A stretch of 36,210 nt of DNA, from positions 1-36,210 of the IMG/VR virus record IMGVR_UViG_3300010885_031536, one strand, 5' to 3'. Shown here piece by piece: positions 6,948 to 26,130 of the stretch. Both the position numbers and the translations under genes were made by a program. Positions within the stretch are counted from its first letter, which is position 1. Every line of letters starts with the position of its first letter. A model generated the notes under the pieces. It made no database searches. It had not been told where the DNA came from and saw only the letters and a list, made by a program, of their open reading frames with translations. The stretch is from a virus.

Positions 6948-9317
6948 ATGTCAAGTGGATTACCATTTCTAGCACCATTGAAAGATTGGGTTAAAACCAA
7001 ATTAGAAACACGTGAAAAAAATACTCAATTATCATCACGTTTATCTCCGTTTATAATATTAAGTTCGGCAGCAGTTGTATTAAACGATACTCCAAAAGGA
7101 GATGGTAAATCAGATGGTGCGGATTACAATGGTGTAAAAGAGGCAATAAAATCTCTTGTTAAAGATGGGAAGTATAGTGGTGTAAAGTATTATGGATGCA
7201 TTGTTGCAAATACTACTGATACCAACAAACTATATCAAACTGCCAACACAATAGTTGGATATGATTTAAATGGAAAAGCCATTACAGTGGATGGTGAAAC
7301 TAACAGAAGAGTATCTGTTCCGATTATAACAAGTTTAGAAATAGATACGCAAGGTGGAAACAATACCGTAAAAACTGCAAGATTGGATATTATGGTATTT
7401 ACATTGAAGCAATTGGAAATGCTTGAATTATTCTTTTTACGTCCTGGTATGAATGTTGTTTTGGAATATGGTAATAACGCAGATATAACTACACATACTA
7501 ATGAAATAAATAGTCGTTTGTTTGCAAATAAAAACTATGAAAACTATAAAACGGCATATACTAATTTGTTTACACATGGTGCGGATTTAACAATAGATAA
7601 CCCATACAAAAACGCAAAAGAATCATATTTAAAAACATTAAAACAAACCGATGGTAATTATGATTTTATGGCAGGCAAGGTCGCAAACTTTAGATTATCA
7701 CCAGATGCAAGTGGTGCATATAAAGTTAACTTAGAAATATCAGCCGGAAACGAATTACAATTATGGATGCCACTTCGTCAATCTGAAGATAAATCAACGG
7801 TTGATAGAAAATCCAAAAAAGATACACCATTAGCTACATATGGTTCTTGGGTTAGTAAAATTGCATCGGATTTTGGATTACCTGTACTTTTCAAAGAACT
7901 GCCAGAATCAAAGTGGAAAAACGAGTTTTTTAATTGGGGTATTGTAGTTGGTAAGGATGCAAAAGGACCAACGTTTTCCAAAGAACCATATATCTCAATG
8001 AGATTGATTATAGAGTTGATAAATCACTTTCAGGTATTTAAAACGAATAATCATTTAATAACCGTACCATATTATACCAACAAAGATAAAAAAGAATCAT
8101 TCATACCTATAAGTTCTAATAAATATATAATGTCATCGTCCGATGATATAATATTTCCTGGGTTTTTACCATCTATAAAGGTATCAACTGCAAAAGAAAC
8201 AAAAGACCAAATAATCATAGATAAAAAAGAAAAACATATAGATGCAAGGATAAATGGATATTCATTTTCAGTATCAGCAGATGTAATACCAAAAGAGTAT
8301 CCACTAATAGACCAAAATGGTAATCAAACAACAATAGATGCAAGTGGAATAGTTTCATTAAATGGTGATGCAAAAAATGTACCATCTACCGTTGGTAATT
8401 TATTAAATGTATTTATAAAATATAGTACATTTTTACAAATGTATGATGAATCATATGTACAGGCAGACCTTTTAAATAAATTATTGGATTTGATAAATGA
8501 TAGTATCTATGGATTAGCCAGCTTGGAGTTATCAAAACCATCTGATACTCCTGGTAATGAACCATTGACAATAATTGATACAAAAATATCAGCGCATAAA
8601 CCAAATAATATTGATAAAAATAGCATATACAGATTTAAGATAGGACCTATCGGTTCTATTATACAAGATTTTAACTTTAATATGGAGTTAAGTTCGTTAA
8701 TGCAAGCACAAGCATTATATTCATCACAACTGGCATTAAACTCATTGGTTGCTGATGGAAGTTTTGTATCCGGATCGGTAGTTGCAAATACATCACCAAT
8801 TACTGGAGCAGATTTTTCTTACCAAACCAATTCCGATGGATATTATTCCATAAATACAATAGAATTGGCAATTGTAAAAGATGCGGCAGAATTGAACAAT
8901 AAACAGATAAAGGATAAACCAGGCATTGTTACTAAAGAAGAAGTAGCTAAAGATGCGAATGGTAAACCAATTGTTATGAGTGATGTTCTTCAAAAGAAGT
9001 TTACACGATTTAGAAACTCAAGTATTACAGATAAAAACGGAGTAGCAATGATATACGATGGGCAGGCTTTAATTTTAAATGCTCTTGAAATAAAAACAGA
9101 TGATACTGTATCTGCATTAACTCAATTTGATATAACTATCGGAATAGACGGGTTGGCGGGATTGAGTTGTGGTGAGTTTTTCTATATAGATGGGGTTCCT
9201 GAAATATATAATAAGAATGGATATTTTCAAATAACAAATGTTAAGCATGGTATAAGTGATGCTGGTTGGAAAACTACAATAGAAGCCGGTTATAGAATTG
9301 ACCATACCGTAAAGTAA
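6948..9317 (+). CDS. Large baseplate hub protein, gp27-like
   Basis: A 789-residue protein. The N-terminal third contains the motif VPIITSLEIDTQGG and then ARLDIMVFTLKQLEMLELFF leading to LRPGMNVVLEYG, typical of phage hub proteins. The C-terminus GYFQITNVKHGISDAGWKTT followed by IEAGYR is a strong hallmark of gp27/VgrG-type hub domains (ligand or structure, then H-x-I-x-x-x-G-W-x-T-x-I-x-A). It should form the central baseplate hub around the tail tube and spike. No lysozyme domain is visible, unlike T4 gp5. It follows the LysM gene by five bases and precedes a small structural-type ORF by eight. Length exceeds T4 gp27, so it may combine hub and other roles. Confidence 0.7.
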   Translation: MSSGLPFLAPLKDWVKTKLETREKNTQLSSRLSPFIILSSAAVVLNDTPKGDGKSDGADYNGVKEAIKSLVKDGKYSGVKYYGCIVANTTDTNKLYQTANTIVGYDLNGKAITVDGETNRRVSVPIITSLEIDTQGGNNTVKTARLDIMVFTLKQLEMLELFFLRPGMNVVLEYGNNADITTHTNEINSRLFANKNYENYKTAYTNLFTHGADLTIDNPYKNAKESYLKTLKQTDGNYDFMAGKVANFRLSPDASGAYKVNLEISAGNELQLWMPLRQSEDKSTVDRKSKKDTPLATYGSWVSKIASDFGLPVLFKELPESKWKNEFFNWGIVVGKDAKGPTFSKEPYISMRLIIELINHFQVFKTNNHLITVPYYTNKDKKESFIPISSNKYIMSSSDDIIFPGFLPSIKVSTAKETKDQIIIDKKEKHIDARINGYSFSVSADVIPKEYPLIDQNGNQTTIDASGIVSLNGDAKNVPSTVGNLLNVFIKYSTFLQMYDESYVQADLLNKLLDLINDSIYGLASLELSKPSDTPGNEPLTIIDTKISAHKPNNIDKNSIYRFKIGPIGSIIQDFNFNMELSSLMQAQALYSSQLALNSLVADGSFVSGSVVANTSPITGADFSYQTNSDGYYSINTIELAIVKDAAELNNKQIKDKPGIVTKEEVAKDANGKPIVMSDVLQKKFTRFRNSSITDKNGVAMIYDGQALILNALEIKTDDTVSALTQFDITIGIDGLAGLSCGEFFYIDGVPEIYNKNGYFQITNVKHGISDAGWKTTIEAGYRIDHTVK

Positions 9318-9703: not shown

Positions 9704-9734
9704 TTGGAAATTCGGAAATTAATTCGTACATTTG
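9704..9734 (+). promoter_or_regulatory. Bacteroidota-type promoter for the PolA-like gene
   Basis: TTG (9704-9706), 20 bases, TACATTTG (9727-9734), matching TTG-N~20-TAnnTTTG. The ATG at 9741 is only seven bases beyond the -7 element, so the transcript should be leaderless or nearly so. Confidence 0.7.
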
Positions 9735-19525: not shown

Positions 19526-19816
19526 ATGACACAGAAACCATTAGGAGATAGAGTAGTTCTCCGAGAAATTGAAGCAAAGGAAGAAGTAATTCGTAATATT
19601 ATAATTCCAGATAGTGCAAAAACAGATGATACAAAACATGCCATCGTAGAAGCAGTAGGACCGGGTATTTACACACAATCGGGTGTATTGATTCCTATGA
19701 GTGTTGCCGTTGGAGATGAGGTAATTATACCACCATATCATCAAGGAACTGAGATAAAAGTAGATGGACAGAAGTATATTCTTCTCAGAGAATCAGATAT
19801 TTTAATGATTGTTTAA
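19526..19816 (+). CDS. groES: GroES-type co-chaperonin
   Basis: A 96-residue co-chaperonin that should cap the host GroEL during folding of phage proteins, the role gp31 plays for the T4 capsid protein. It is a recognisable canonical GroES: KPLGDRVVLREIEAKEEVIR at the start, a mobile loop with NIIIPDSAK, AIVEAVGPG, VGDEVIIPPYHQGTEIKVDG and the typical end KYILLRESDILMIV. T4 gp31 is much more divergent, so this gene may have been acquired from a bacterium, though base composition looks like the neighbours. It sits inside the replication block rather than next to head genes. Confidence 0.92.
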   Translation: MTQKPLGDRVVLREIEAKEEVIRNIIIPDSAKTDDTKHAIVEAVGPGIYTQSGVLIPMSVAVGDEVIIPPYHQGTEIKVDGQKYILLRESDILMIV

Positions 19817-21701: not shown

Positions 21702-23558
21702 ATGGACATTTCAACAAAGATTTTGTCGGATATTACGGTTTACATGAAATATGCAAAGTATATCCCAGAATTACAACGTAGAGAGACGTGGAATGAGTTA
21801 GTAACTCGTAATATGCAGATGCATATCAAACGTTATCCACAATTAGAAGAAGAGATTAGAGAAAATTATGAGTTCGTATATGGTAAGAAAGTTCTACCAT
21901 CAATGCGTTCAATGCAGTTTGCAGGAAAACCAATTGAAATTAGTCCAAATCGTATATACAATTGCGCATTTGCTCCAATCGATGATTACAGAGTATTTGC
22001 AGAAATTATGTTTCTATTATTAGGTGGAACTGGAGTAGGTTATTCAGTTCAACAACATCATATTGACCAATTGCCTGAGATTCGTAAACCATCCGCTGAT
22101 AAAACTCGTAGGTTTTTAGTTGGTGATTCTATTGAAGGTTGGGCAGATTCGATATCGGTATTGGTAAAAGCATATTTCTTAGGTGGAAGTAAACCAGTAT
22201 TTGATTTCAGAGATATTAGAGCAAAAGGAGCTCGTTTAATTACAAGTGGAGGTAAAGCACCAGGTCCACAACCATTGAAAGAGTGTTTAATAAAATTAGA
22301 AGGTATTTTTGATGCTAAGAAAAACGGAGATAAATTAAAACCAATCGAAGTTCACGATATTGTTTGTCATATTGCAGATGCAGTATTAGCAGGTGGTATC
22401 CGTAGAGCAGCACTTATTTCACTATTTTCTGCAACCGATGAGAATATGATTAGTTGTAAGAGTGGTGCATGGTGGGAAAGTAATCCACAGAGGGGTAGAG
22501 CAAATAACTCAGCAGTTCTGATGAGACATAAGATTACAAAAGAGTATTTCTTAGACCTTTGGAAACGTATTGAAGCAAGTGGTGCAGGAGAACCTGGAAT
22601 CTACTTATCGAATGATAAAGATTGGGGCACTAATCCATGTTGCGAGATTGCACTACGTCCTTATCAGTTCTGTAATCTATGTGAGGTAAATGTATCAGAT
22701 GTAGTTGACCAAGATGATTTGAATAAAAGAGTTAAAGCAGCGGCATTCATTGGAACATTACAAGCAAGCTATACCGATTTCCATTATCTTCGTCCAATTT
22801 GGCAGAGAACAACTGAGAAAGATGCACTTATTGGTGTTTCTATGACAGGAATCGGAAGTGGTGCAGTATTGAACTTAGATATGAAAACTGCAGCAAAGGG
22901 AGTTAAGGAAGAAAATAAAAGAGTAGCAGAAATACTAAAGATAAATAGTTCAGCAAGATGTACTACGGTTAAACCAGCAGGAACAACTTCATTAGCATTA
23001 GGAACTTCATCCGGAATTCACGCTTGGCATAACCAATATTATATTCGTAGAGTAAGAGTTGGTAAGAATGAGGCAATTTATTCTCACTTAGCAGCAAACC
23101 ATCCCGAATTGGTAGAAGATGAATACTTCAGACCACATGATACTGCTGTGATTGGTATTCCACAAAAAGCACCAGAAACTGCAATCTTCAGAACTGAATC
23201 ACCAATTCAATTATTGGAACGAGTTAAGAAAGTACATAGTGAGTGGGTTAAACCTGGACATAGAACGGGAAGTAACACACATAATGTATCGGCAACTATT
23301 TCGGTAAGAGAGCATGAGTGGAAAGCAGTTGGAGAATGGATGTGGGAAAATAAAGAGTTTTACAATGGCCTTTCGGTACTACCATTCGATGGTGGCAGTT
23401 ATATCCAAGCACCTTTTGAGGATTGCACAAAGGAACGTTATGATGAGTTAATGAAAACGTTACATGATGTTGATTTGAGTAAGATTTTGGAAATAGAAGA
23501 TACAACCGATTTAAGTGGTGAGATTGCGTGTGGCGCAGATGGGTGCGAAGTGAAGTGA
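21702..23558 (+). CDS. nrdJ: Adenosylcobalamin-dependent (class II) ribonucleotide reductase
   Basis: Reduces ribonucleotides to deoxyribonucleotides using adenosylcobalamin; it resembles the monomeric ribonucleoside-triphosphate reductase of Lactobacillus. Cys88 in NRIYNCAFAP is the first redox Cys. NPCCEI holds the thiyl-radical Cys313 and Glu315. Cys324 lies 11 residues further, the same spacing as in the Lactobacillus enzyme. The C-terminal CGADGC (610-615) is the swinging redox pair. The usual Gly in NPCGEI is replaced by a second Cys (314). At 618 residues it is shorter than the 739-residue Lactobacillus enzyme. It works with no second subunit, and B12 must come from the host or environment. 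A structured leader precedes it. Confidence 0.9.
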   Translation: MDISTKILSDITVYMKYAKYIPELQRRETWNELVTRNMQMHIKRYPQLEEEIRENYEFVYGKKVLPSMRSMQFAGKPIEISPNRIYNCAFAPIDDYRVFAEIMFLLLGGTGVGYSVQQHHIDQLPEIRKPSADKTRRFLVGDSIEGWADSISVLVKAYFLGGSKPVFDFRDIRAKGARLITSGGKAPGPQPLKECLIKLEGIFDAKKNGDKLKPIEVHDIVCHIADAVLAGGIRRAALISLFSATDENMISCKSGAWWESNPQRGRANNSAVLMRHKITKEYFLDLWKRIEASGAGEPGIYLSNDKDWGTNPCCEIALRPYQFCNLCEVNVSDVVDQDDLNKRVKAAAFIGTLQASYTDFHYLRPIWQRTTEKDALIGVSMTGIGSGAVLNLDMKTAAKGVKEENKRVAEILKINSSARCTTVKPAGTTSLALGTSSGIHAWHNQYYIRRVRVGKNEAIYSHLAANHPELVEDEYFRPHDTAVIGIPQKAPETAIFRTESPIQLLERVKKVHSEWVKPGHRTGSNTHNVSATISVREHEWKAVGEWMWENKEFYNGLSVLPFDGGSYIQAPFEDCTKERYDELMKTLHDVDLSKILEIEDTTDLSGEIACGADGCEVK

Positions 23559-23564
23559 TAGAAT

Positions 23565-23592
23565 CGTAACATTAATGTAACGATACTGTAAC
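23565..23592 (+). promoter_or_regulatory. Pho-box-like array of three 11-bp repeats
   Basis: CGTAAC (23565-23570), TGTAAC (23576-23581) and TGTAAC (23587-23592) begin exactly 11 bases apart, with AT-rich spacers. Enterobacterial Pho boxes are direct repeats related to TGTCA with the same 11-bp period. The array lies 53 bases before the porin ATG and directly upstream of the phosphate porin and pstS genes, so binding by a host PhoB-like regulator is a strong inference. Confidence 0.65.
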
Positions 23593-23645
23593 CAATTTAA
23601 GAAGACAATTACATAGTTATTACAAAACCATTTAAAAACAAATTT

Positions 23646-24995
23646 ATGAGAAAATTAAGATTATTATTATTTCTATTGATTTCAGTTATTGCATTTAACT
23701 CAAATGCACAACAACAAACTACAAATGAAAAATTAACCGAAGTAAATGAAAAGGTTAATGGGATATTGGAAAGATTATCAACATCTGACGCAGACCTTTC
23801 CAAACTTACTAAGATTAAAGTATCGGGATATATTCAAACCCAATATCAGAACTTCGAAAGTGTTTCATTACTTTCCAAATCACAAAACTATTTTTCTATT
23901 AGAAGAGCTAGGGTTAAGTTTACTTACGAAGCAACCGATGGGATTAAGTTTGTGTTACAACCGGATTTTGCTCCAGGTAGCCTTTCATTGAAAGATGCGT
24001 ATGTTGTAGTAAATGACCATTGGACAAAACAATTTAGTTTATGGACAGGTAAGTTCAACCGACCCAATTATGAAGTTGAATATTCTTCAAGTCAGAGAGA
24101 GTTACCAGAACGTTCATTAGTTATCAGAACACTATATCCAGGAGAACGTGCTATTGGTGCAAAATTGGAATACAATCCAACGGTTTTACCACTACACATC
24201 CAATTGGCTGTTTTTAATGGCAACGATGGATTATCCGTTGTCAATAGTGCCGGAGTTAACGTTAACGCAACTGATAACATAGATTACGATAATTTCAAAG
24301 ATATTATGGTAAGAGCAACTTACAATTTGAGATTGGGTAACTTTGGTGGATTGGATTTTGGTGGACATGGTTATTTCGGAGCATTGAAATCAACTACAAC
24401 CAAAACATTAGGAAGTAACTATACAACACTTACCGATATCAAGGTTGGTAATCCAATTGAACGTAATTGGGTAGGTGGAGAGTTTCAGTTATTCGCAGAT
24501 GTATTGGGTGGGTTCTCAGTAAAAGGTGAGTATATAGCCGGTAAAAATGCAACTGCAGGATATGTGGCAGCAACTGGAGTAGTTGGAGTTCCAAACTTCC
24601 AAAACAACTTTAGTGGTGAATACATTTACTTTATTAAGAACTTAGGTAAACGAAACCAATTTGCTTTCCGATACGATTACTATGACCCAAATACGGATAT
24701 CATTGGTAAGGATGTAGCAATCACAGGGTTTGCAAGCACAGATGCTACTATAAAATCAAAGACAAGTGGTAAAGCAGACCTTGCAACAACTACATACGGA
24801 GTTGCATTCCACCACTATTTTGATGACAACATTCGTATTACAATTGGATACGATGTAGTTCAGAACGAAAAAGTTGGAACACTCAATAAAGTAGTTGATA
24901 GTTATACTACCGCTGTCGGAGTTCCAATCAAAGTTGACTGGAATAGTGTTGTTAATCAGAATGTATTTATTGTAAGAATCCAAGCCAAATTCTAA
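23646..24995 (+). CDS. Phosphate-selective porin, OprO/OprP family
   Basis: An outer-membrane channel expected to admit phosphate or other anions. It begins with a signal peptide (MRKLRLLLFLLISVIAFNSN, cleaved near AQ^QQ), followed by a short coiled-coil (TNEKLTEVNEKVNGILERLS) and a beta-barrel typical of porin O/P: KVSGYIQTQYQNF, FSIRRARVKFTYEATDGIKF, LKDAYVVVNDHW, WTGKFNRPNYEVEYSSSQRE. It ends in IVRIQAKF, with the terminal Phe used for barrel insertion. At 449 residues it is of usual length. It is followed 13 bases later by pstS and preceded by a Pho-box-like array. A host-derived auxiliary metabolic gene; substrate is inferred from family and partner. Confidence 0.85.
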   Translation: MRKLRLLLFLLISVIAFNSNAQQQTTNEKLTEVNEKVNGILERLSTSDADLSKLTKIKVSGYIQTQYQNFESVSLLSKSQNYFSIRRARVKFTYEATDGIKFVLQPDFAPGSLSLKDAYVVVNDHWTKQFSLWTGKFNRPNYEVEYSSSQRELPERSLVIRTLYPGERAIGAKLEYNPTVLPLHIQLAVFNGNDGLSVVNSAGVNVNATDNIDYDNFKDIMVRATYNLRLGNFGGLDFGGHGYFGALKSTTTKTLGSNYTTLTDIKVGNPIERNWVGGEFQLFADVLGGFSVKGEYIAGKNATAGYVAATGVVGVPNFQNNFSGEYIYFIKNLGKRNQFAFRYDYYDPNTDIIGKDVAITGFASTDATIKSKTSGKADLATTTYGVAFHHYFDDNIRITIGYDVVQNEKVGTLNKVVDSYTTAVGVPIKVDWNSVVNQNVFIVRIQAKF

Positions 24996-25008
24996 AAAAT
25001 ATTATAAT

Positions 25009-25848
25009 ATGAAAAATCTAAAATTCTTCAAAGTATCGGTAATCGCAGCATTACTATTTATCACAGCAGTAGCATTCGTTGCAGCTCCAGAACGTATCAC
25101 TATTAAAGGTTCTGATACAATGGTTATCTTAGCACAACGGTGGGCAGAAGTATATATGAAAACAAACACTAACGCCGCTATCCAAGTTACGGGTGGCGGT
25201 AGTGGTGTTGGCATTTCGGCATTAATCAATGGTTCTACGGATGTTGCAAACGCAAGCCGTAAGATGAAACAAACTGAAAAGGATAAGTTAAAACAACGTT
25301 ATAATACATTAGGAGTTGAAGTAGCTTGTGCGAAAGATGGTATTACAATCTATCTTAATCCAGCAAACAAAGTTACTGAGTTAACAATCAAACAACTTAG
25401 TGATATCTACAAAGGTGTAATTACCAATTGGAAAGAAGTTGGAGGTGCTGACCAATCAATCAAACTATATGGTAGAGAGAATAGTTCAGGTACTTATGTA
25501 TTCTTCCAAGAGAATGTTGTAAAGGGTGATTACGCTACGAGTTGTCAAACTCTACCAGGTACTGCCGCAGTTGTAAATGCAGTTAAGAAAGATGCATATG
25601 GTATTGGATATGGTGGAGCAGCATACGCAGAAGGTATTGTTATTTGCAAAGTTAAACGAGATGATAAGAGTATTGGTTCTATCCCAACTGCCGAAACAAT
25701 TAAGACTGGTGAATATCCTATTACCCGATATTTATATATGTACCTACGAAACAGACCAACCGGTGAAACAAAGAAGTATATCGATTGGATTTTGAGTTCA
25801 GAAGGACAAAAATTAGTAGTAGAGTTGGGATATTTCCCAGTAAAATAA
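25009..25848 (+). CDS. pstS: Periplasmic phosphate-binding protein PstS
   Basis: Captures phosphate in the periplasm and passes it to the host PstCAB transporter. A signal peptide (MKNLKFFKVSVIAALLFITA, ending near VAA) lacks a lipobox Cys, so the product is soluble. Phosphate-site motifs are present: IKGSDTM, TGGGSGVGISALINGSTDVA, NASRKMK and GRENSSGTYVFF. The 279-residue length is typical. No pstC, pstA or pstB was seen, so it must serve host components. PstS is a known auxiliary gene in cyanophages. Here it is paired with an outer-membrane porin, giving both steps of phosphate capture. Confidence 0.93.
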   Translation: MKNLKFFKVSVIAALLFITAVAFVAAPERITIKGSDTMVILAQRWAEVYMKTNTNAAIQVTGGGSGVGISALINGSTDVANASRKMKQTEKDKLKQRYNTLGVEVACAKDGITIYLNPANKVTELTIKQLSDIYKGVITNWKEVGGADQSIKLYGRENSSGTYVFFQENVVKGDYATSCQTLPGTAAVVNAVKKDAYGIGYGGAAYAEGIVICKVKRDDKSIGSIPTAETIKTGEYPITRYLYMYLRNRPTGETKKYIDWILSSEGQKLVVELGYFPVK

Positions 25849-25863
25849 TAAATAAATAGAATT

Positions 25864-26130
25864 ATGCTAACTGTAAAGAAATTTTATGGCACATTTTGCC
25901 AACCATGTAAAGTATTAGCACCCATTATGAATGAAGTTAAGGGTAATTTTCCAAATGTTCGTTTTGAAGATTATGATGTAGACGAGTACGAAAATATGGC
26001 AGCAAAATATGGAGTTCGTTCAGTACCAACGGTTGTTATAGAAAACAATGGTAAGGAAGTTGGTAGACTGACAGGAGTTCAATCTAAAATGACTTATGTT
26101 AATATTTTAAATGAAAATTTGACACGATAA
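25864..26130 (+). CDS. Thioredoxin-like protein
   Basis: An 88-residue thioredoxin fold, close to the minimal size for the family. The active site is FCQPC with Cys12 and Cys15 (WCGPC in classic thioredoxin), and the cis-proline loop is SVPTVV. The aspartate-rich VRFEDYDVDEYENMAAKYGV stretch is typical. It could reduce the C-terminal Cys pair of the class II RNR encoded upstream, as T4 thioredoxin does for its RNR. It starts 15 bases after pstS, so it may be co-transcribed with the phosphate operon. Confidence 0.88.
   Translation: MLTVKKFYGTFCQPCKVLAPIMNEVKGNFPNVRFEDYDVDEYENMAAKYGVRSVPTVVIENNGKEVGRLTGVQSKMTYVNILNENLTR

Follow-up and report, generated by a model that had tools for sequence, protein, structure and literature searches.

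The question raised by this locus was whether a phage can carry phosphate-capture genes for the outer membrane and the periplasm behind a control site that is read by the phosphate regulator of its host. The window, meaning the whole stretch of DNA that was analysed, was the IMG/VR virus record IMGVR_UViG_3300010885_031536 (36,210 bases). The results make it quite probable that the window comes from a T4-like phage infecting a freshwater host of Bacteroidales type, and that this phage has captured a host Pho box with the first two genes of the pst operon (porin and pstS), as a phosphate supply under the control of host PhoB.

Gene content of the window

The porin and pstS genes were located within a phage genome, with phage genes on both flanks. 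Phage genes of the window included T4_baseplate, a UvsX-like recombinase, a DnaB-like helicase, a phage DNA polymerase, a clamp loader and a ribonucleotide reductase. The order was reductase gene, three-hexamer array, porin gene, pstS and thioredoxin gene, with the following features:

21702..23558, + strand: ribonucleotide reductase, phage type (phrog_367), neighbour upstream of the array, outside the cassette
23565..23570, + strand: putative Pho-box repeat 1, CGTAAC (exact sequence and host-trained matrix)
23576..23581, + strand: putative Pho-box repeat 2, TGTAAC, 11 bp after repeat 1
23587..23592, + strand: putative Pho-box repeat 3, TGTAAC, 11 bp after repeat 2
23608..23624, − strand (reads 23624 to 23608): inverted pair TGTAAT-N5-TGTAAT, second-best matrix match in the window
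23646..24995, + strand: outer-membrane porin, Porin_O_P (PF07396), predicted fold nearest OprP/OprO
25009..25848, + strand: PstS-type periplasmic phosphate-binding protein (PF12849) with GSDT, GGGSGVG and RENSSGT motifs
25864..26130, + strand: thioredoxin, 15 bp downstream of pstS

The earlier note on this DNA had described three hexamers starting exactly 11 bp apart directly before a porin O/P gene and pstS, and all three elements were confirmed. CGTAAC, TGTAAC and TGTAAC started at 23565, 23576 and 23587, direct repeats at an 11-bp period; repeat 1 started 7 bp past the last base (23558) of the reductase gene, and the array stood 81 bp upstream of the porin gene, with pstS next. The pattern YGTAAC-N5-YGTAAC occurred in the window at this site alone, as two overlapping matches (0.01 expected), a count reached in 0 of 100 shuffles. 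With a position matrix trained on host promoters only, the pre-porin array ranked first among 72,366 window positions (both strands). The inverted pair in the same gap, which the earlier note did not mention, was the sole other exact TGTMAY-N5-TGTMAY pair across the 36 kb and was absent from the 44 upstream regions examined, host promoters among them; it could act as a second operator or have arisen by chance.

The porin scored 37.9 bits against PF07396 (gathering cut-off 20.9). Its structure model, built from 36 sequences (pLDDT 80.9), was a beta barrel with an N-terminal helix, and its best matches among solved structures were OprP (Z 26.8) and OprO (Z 26.7 and 26.6), a small margin over other porins (at most 24.6). 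The model supports an OprP/OprO-type porin, although a barrel fold is no proof of phosphate selectivity. The porin profile found no solved structure related by sequence among PDB sequences, and tblastn of the porin against GenBank phages gave no match. In Flavobacterium johnsoniae, phosphate depletion did not induce the OprP-type porin encoded in the PhoBR operon (PMC8115612). A role other than phosphate capture, with the porin changing the cell surface (for instance by replacing or masking a receptor, to prevent superinfection) or with PstS damping down Pho signalling, is very unlikely: the uncertain selectivity of the barrel, the lack of a sequence relative among solved structures and the occurrence of other porins in phage sequences would allow it, but the model was nearest OprP/OprO, and in all three phages with this porin (see below) the layout was that of the host pst operon, with pstS and an array of Pho type alongside.

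The protein encoded next to the porin gene matched PF12849 (E 7e-42) and was similar to solved phosphate-binding proteins. In alignment, it carried GSDT, GGGSGVG, SR and RENSSGT, corresponding to the published list of PstS phosphate-binding motifs (T, gSgxg, S/D, RxxxSgT; PMC10987575). No PstCAB was encoded in the window, nor were phoU, phoB or phoR. The proposal of a complete two-membrane module thus stood for the outer membrane (porin) and the periplasm (PstS) and failed for the inner membrane, where transport must be the host's. The thioredoxin gene possibly shares the pstS transcript; judged from gene order, it is outside the captured cassette, since it was not beside the cassette in the other two phages or in hosts.

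Bacteroidota-type promoters, mostly TTGGA-N-TATATTTG, were found at window positions 9704, 14927, 26133, 28026 and 30986, directly before genes starting at 9732, 14962, 26168, 28094 and 31014, respectively. The pattern had 6 matches on the + strand of the window vs. 1.9 expected, so ordinary host promoters appear to be used for other phage genes. The window also encoded a GroES co-chaperonin homologue (19526-19816) and two neighbouring paralogues of the Mom DNA-modification family (PF25680; 26355-27116 and 27195-27998).

Host operons and their promoters

The closest cellular relatives of PstS (best 89% identity) were from Bacteroidota, mostly lake Bacteroidia and Prolixibacteraceae MAGs, and at most of these loci the same porin was encoded directly upstream of pstS. 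With the closest cellular porins also from lake Bacteroidales/Prolixibacteraceae MAGs, and with Bacteroidota-type promoters before other window genes, the Bacteroidota host suggested earlier was supported. The host operon ran porin-pstS-pstC-pstA-pstB-phoU, with genes for a response regulator and histidine kinase next in several loci.

Three TGTMAY repeats at 11 bp were present upstream of the host porin in four loci (L005, L006, L008 and L011), and a second host group had GTTAAC-AATTA-TTTAAC-N5-GGTAAY in many upstream regions. The array score was at least 16/18 in 20 of 58 porin-pstS upstream regions (two phages included); among 1,797 random windows, some possibly with genuine boxes of their own, the share was 0.8%. 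In Flavobacterium porin operons, this consensus gave no clear array upstream.

Across 12 host genomes, the three-repeat pattern had 19 matches vs. 0 for the reversed control. The genes behind these matches were mostly Pho-regulon genes (porin-pstS, a second PstS, PhoU, and PiT, a PHO4-type phosphate transporter); some matches preceded SusC-type TonB receptors, and a few had no clear target. Because of the 19 vs. 0 matches and the Pho-type genes downstream, the array very probably serves these Bacteroidales hosts as their Pho box, and the box upstream of the phage porin equalled it. The earlier note had named the absence of such repeats before host Pho genes as evidence against its reading; the repeats were found in Bacteroidales chromosomes. 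A scan of host genomes for the second type of box gave 9 matches and 0 in the control; this pattern was derived from the same promoters and probably re-found mostly them. No description of a Bacteroidota Pho box was found in the literature searched.

The SusC-type TonB receptors behind three-repeat boxes in host genomes (L209, L212 and L213) are candidates for phosphate-related uptake.

With TAnnTTTG taken as the −7 element of the Bacteroidota core promoter, hosts had TTTG about 14 bp downstream of the array. In the window and in the second phage described below, this element was degenerate, and their core promoter is therefore not typical.

Other phages with the cassette

In the IMG/VR scans, this porin-PstS pair turned up on two more contigs. 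The second phage (IMGVR_UViG_3300027749_000051, 125 kb) had a porin 77% and a PstS 82% identical to those of the window, quite different gene neighbours and the array TGTCAC-AATAA-TGTAAT-TGTTT-TGTAAT before the porin. The third (IMGVR_UViG_3300029286_000145, 34 kb), with terminase genes, had a porin of 47% identity and, ahead of porin-pstS, four TTTAAY repeats with an 11-bp period, resembling the second host group. With the host-trained matrix, the pre-porin array ranked first of 249,622 positions in the second phage and first of 34,742 positions at the locus of the third. By blastp (17 kb around the cassette for the third phage), essentially only the porin and PstS were common to the three phages, the rest being weak thioredoxin, ATPase or HNH-type matches. 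The DNA polymerase of the window had no match in the second phage.

Under one alternative, which is unlikely, the cassette works but owes its expression to phage read-through transcription or to a different phage promoter, and the Pho box is a relic of capture with little effect. The short distance from the end of the reductase gene to the array, the placement of all genes on the same strand and the degenerate −7 element in the window and the second phage fit this alternative. Against it, the array was still top-scoring in two diverged phages and in an independently derived third while the rest of the upstream region had diverged, and the changes within phage arrays were mostly ones also used by hosts.

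Strict TGTAAC arrays were found in viral contigs in at least 120 stretches vs. 43 for the reversed motif, and among the loci examined by eye no phosphate gene was found downstream. A TGTAAC array alone is thus not diagnostic of Pho control in phages, and the case for the phage array comes from the orthologous host promoters and the two other phages. The claim of a matching Pho operator accordingly held as to the match with orthologous host promoters, and did not hold if the array is taken by itself as Pho-specific. It is highly improbable that the array is a phage iteron (a packaging or replication site) that stands before the porin by chance. Arrays of TGTAAC-N5 do occur in many viral contigs, some before genes resembling small terminase subunits, but the same array was present in host chromosomal promoters, the second and third phages carried host-type degenerate versions (TGTCAC/TGTAAT and TTTAAT), and the window and the second phage held a single array each.

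Two further observations were made on viral contigs. In other phages, 11-bp TGTAAC repeats preceded genes resembling small terminase subunits (L098, L099, L127, L191, L184 and L204). On a 303-kb phage contig (L280), a pstS gene standing alone (48% identical) was preceded at about 7910-7944 by two TGTAAC repeats with 11-bp spacing; ending only 14 bp from the ATG, they are too near it for an ordinary activator site.

Origin and selection

In the porin tree, the window phage (phage 1 in trees and dN/dS comparisons) and phage 2 were sisters (100/98) within lake Bacteroidia/Prolixibacteraceae, and phage 3 was on another branch. Well-supported branches forced at least two changes, read as at least two captures of the cassette by phages. 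The PstS tree gave the same donor group, with phages 1 and 2 not firmly joined (70/44). The gap between porin and pstS was 6-13 bp in phages vs. 30-110 bp in the hosts measured. By sequence comparison, the cassette is of host origin.

Among phage 1, phage 2 and the nearest hosts, dN was about one tenth of dS or less. Between phages 1 and 2, dN was 0.134 and dS 1.5 for the porin, and dN was 0.113 and dS 1.9 for PstS, with dS near saturation. These ratios place the cassette genes under purifying selection.

That the contig is a chimera or contains host contamination has a negligible chance. It is a metagenome assembly and its nearest proteins are cellular, but phage genes directly flanked the cassette on both sides, two other contigs held the porin-pstS pair in phage contexts, and the gap between the two genes was shortened in phages.

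Discussion

Capture of a host Pho box with porin and pstS would work as follows. At low phosphate, host PhoB becomes phosphorylated and would bind the three 11-bp repeats of the phage array, switching on porin and pstS during infection. The porin, if selective, would bring more phosphate across the outer membrane into the periplasm, where PstS would hand it to the host's own PstCAB. The phosphate gained could supply phage DNA synthesis, to the presumed benefit of the phage. The phage thus probably boosts phosphate uptake in a starved host. In cyanophages without pstS, lysis was delayed in starved hosts (PMC10976474), which by analogy suggests a benefit of the cassette.

The closest known system is cyanophage pstS under host PhoBR (P-SSM2 and S-SM1; PMC10976474), with the same logic in another phylum. 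Both have a T4-like phage, a host-derived pstS, a host-matching Pho box and more than one acquisition from hosts. The present case differs in its Bacteroidota host, in the porin alongside pstS (a porin is not mentioned for cyanophage pstS in PMC10976474), in the captured unit, which takes in the host promoter and the two genes that open the host operon, and in the Pho box itself (TGTAAC/TTTAAC, 11 bp). The cassette shares with the chromosomal porin-pstSCAB-phoU-phoBR operon of Bacteroidales/Prolixibacteraceae an orthologous porin, an orthologous PstS with up to 89% identity, the order of the first two genes and the array; unlike that operon, the phage is without pstCAB, phoU, phoB and phoR and has a shortened gap between porin and pstS. 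Phosphorus-acquisition auxiliary genes of soil phages likewise include pstS (PMC10987575), and the main text of that study is without porin, Pho box or Bacteroidota. A porin O/P also occurs in another viral record (A0A8S5S2G8 in BFVD, 'Phosphate-selective porin O and P', Siphoviridae sp. ctBLh2), with 15% identity to the window porin. No phage phosphate porin was found in the literature searched.

A wider proposal is tentative, and somewhat more apt to fail than to hold. It states that unrelated Bacteroidota phages have repeatedly captured a Pho box with porin and pstS, the type of box following the donor clade, that the phosphate sensor of the host switches on a virus-borne capture route from the outer membrane to the periplasm, and that the inverted pair in the window is a PhoB operator that adds tuning or limits expression.

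Host-controlled phosphate genes of phages have so far come mainly from marine cyanophages, and the capture of a Pho box with porin and pstS would extend the principle to another phylum and add an outer-membrane step to phage phosphate capture. The host promoters also gave a candidate Pho-box consensus for Bacteroidales. On at least two separate occasions, captured genes appear to have brought their regulatory DNA along, which makes the idea that phages sense the nutrient state of the host via the host regulator testable by comparison.
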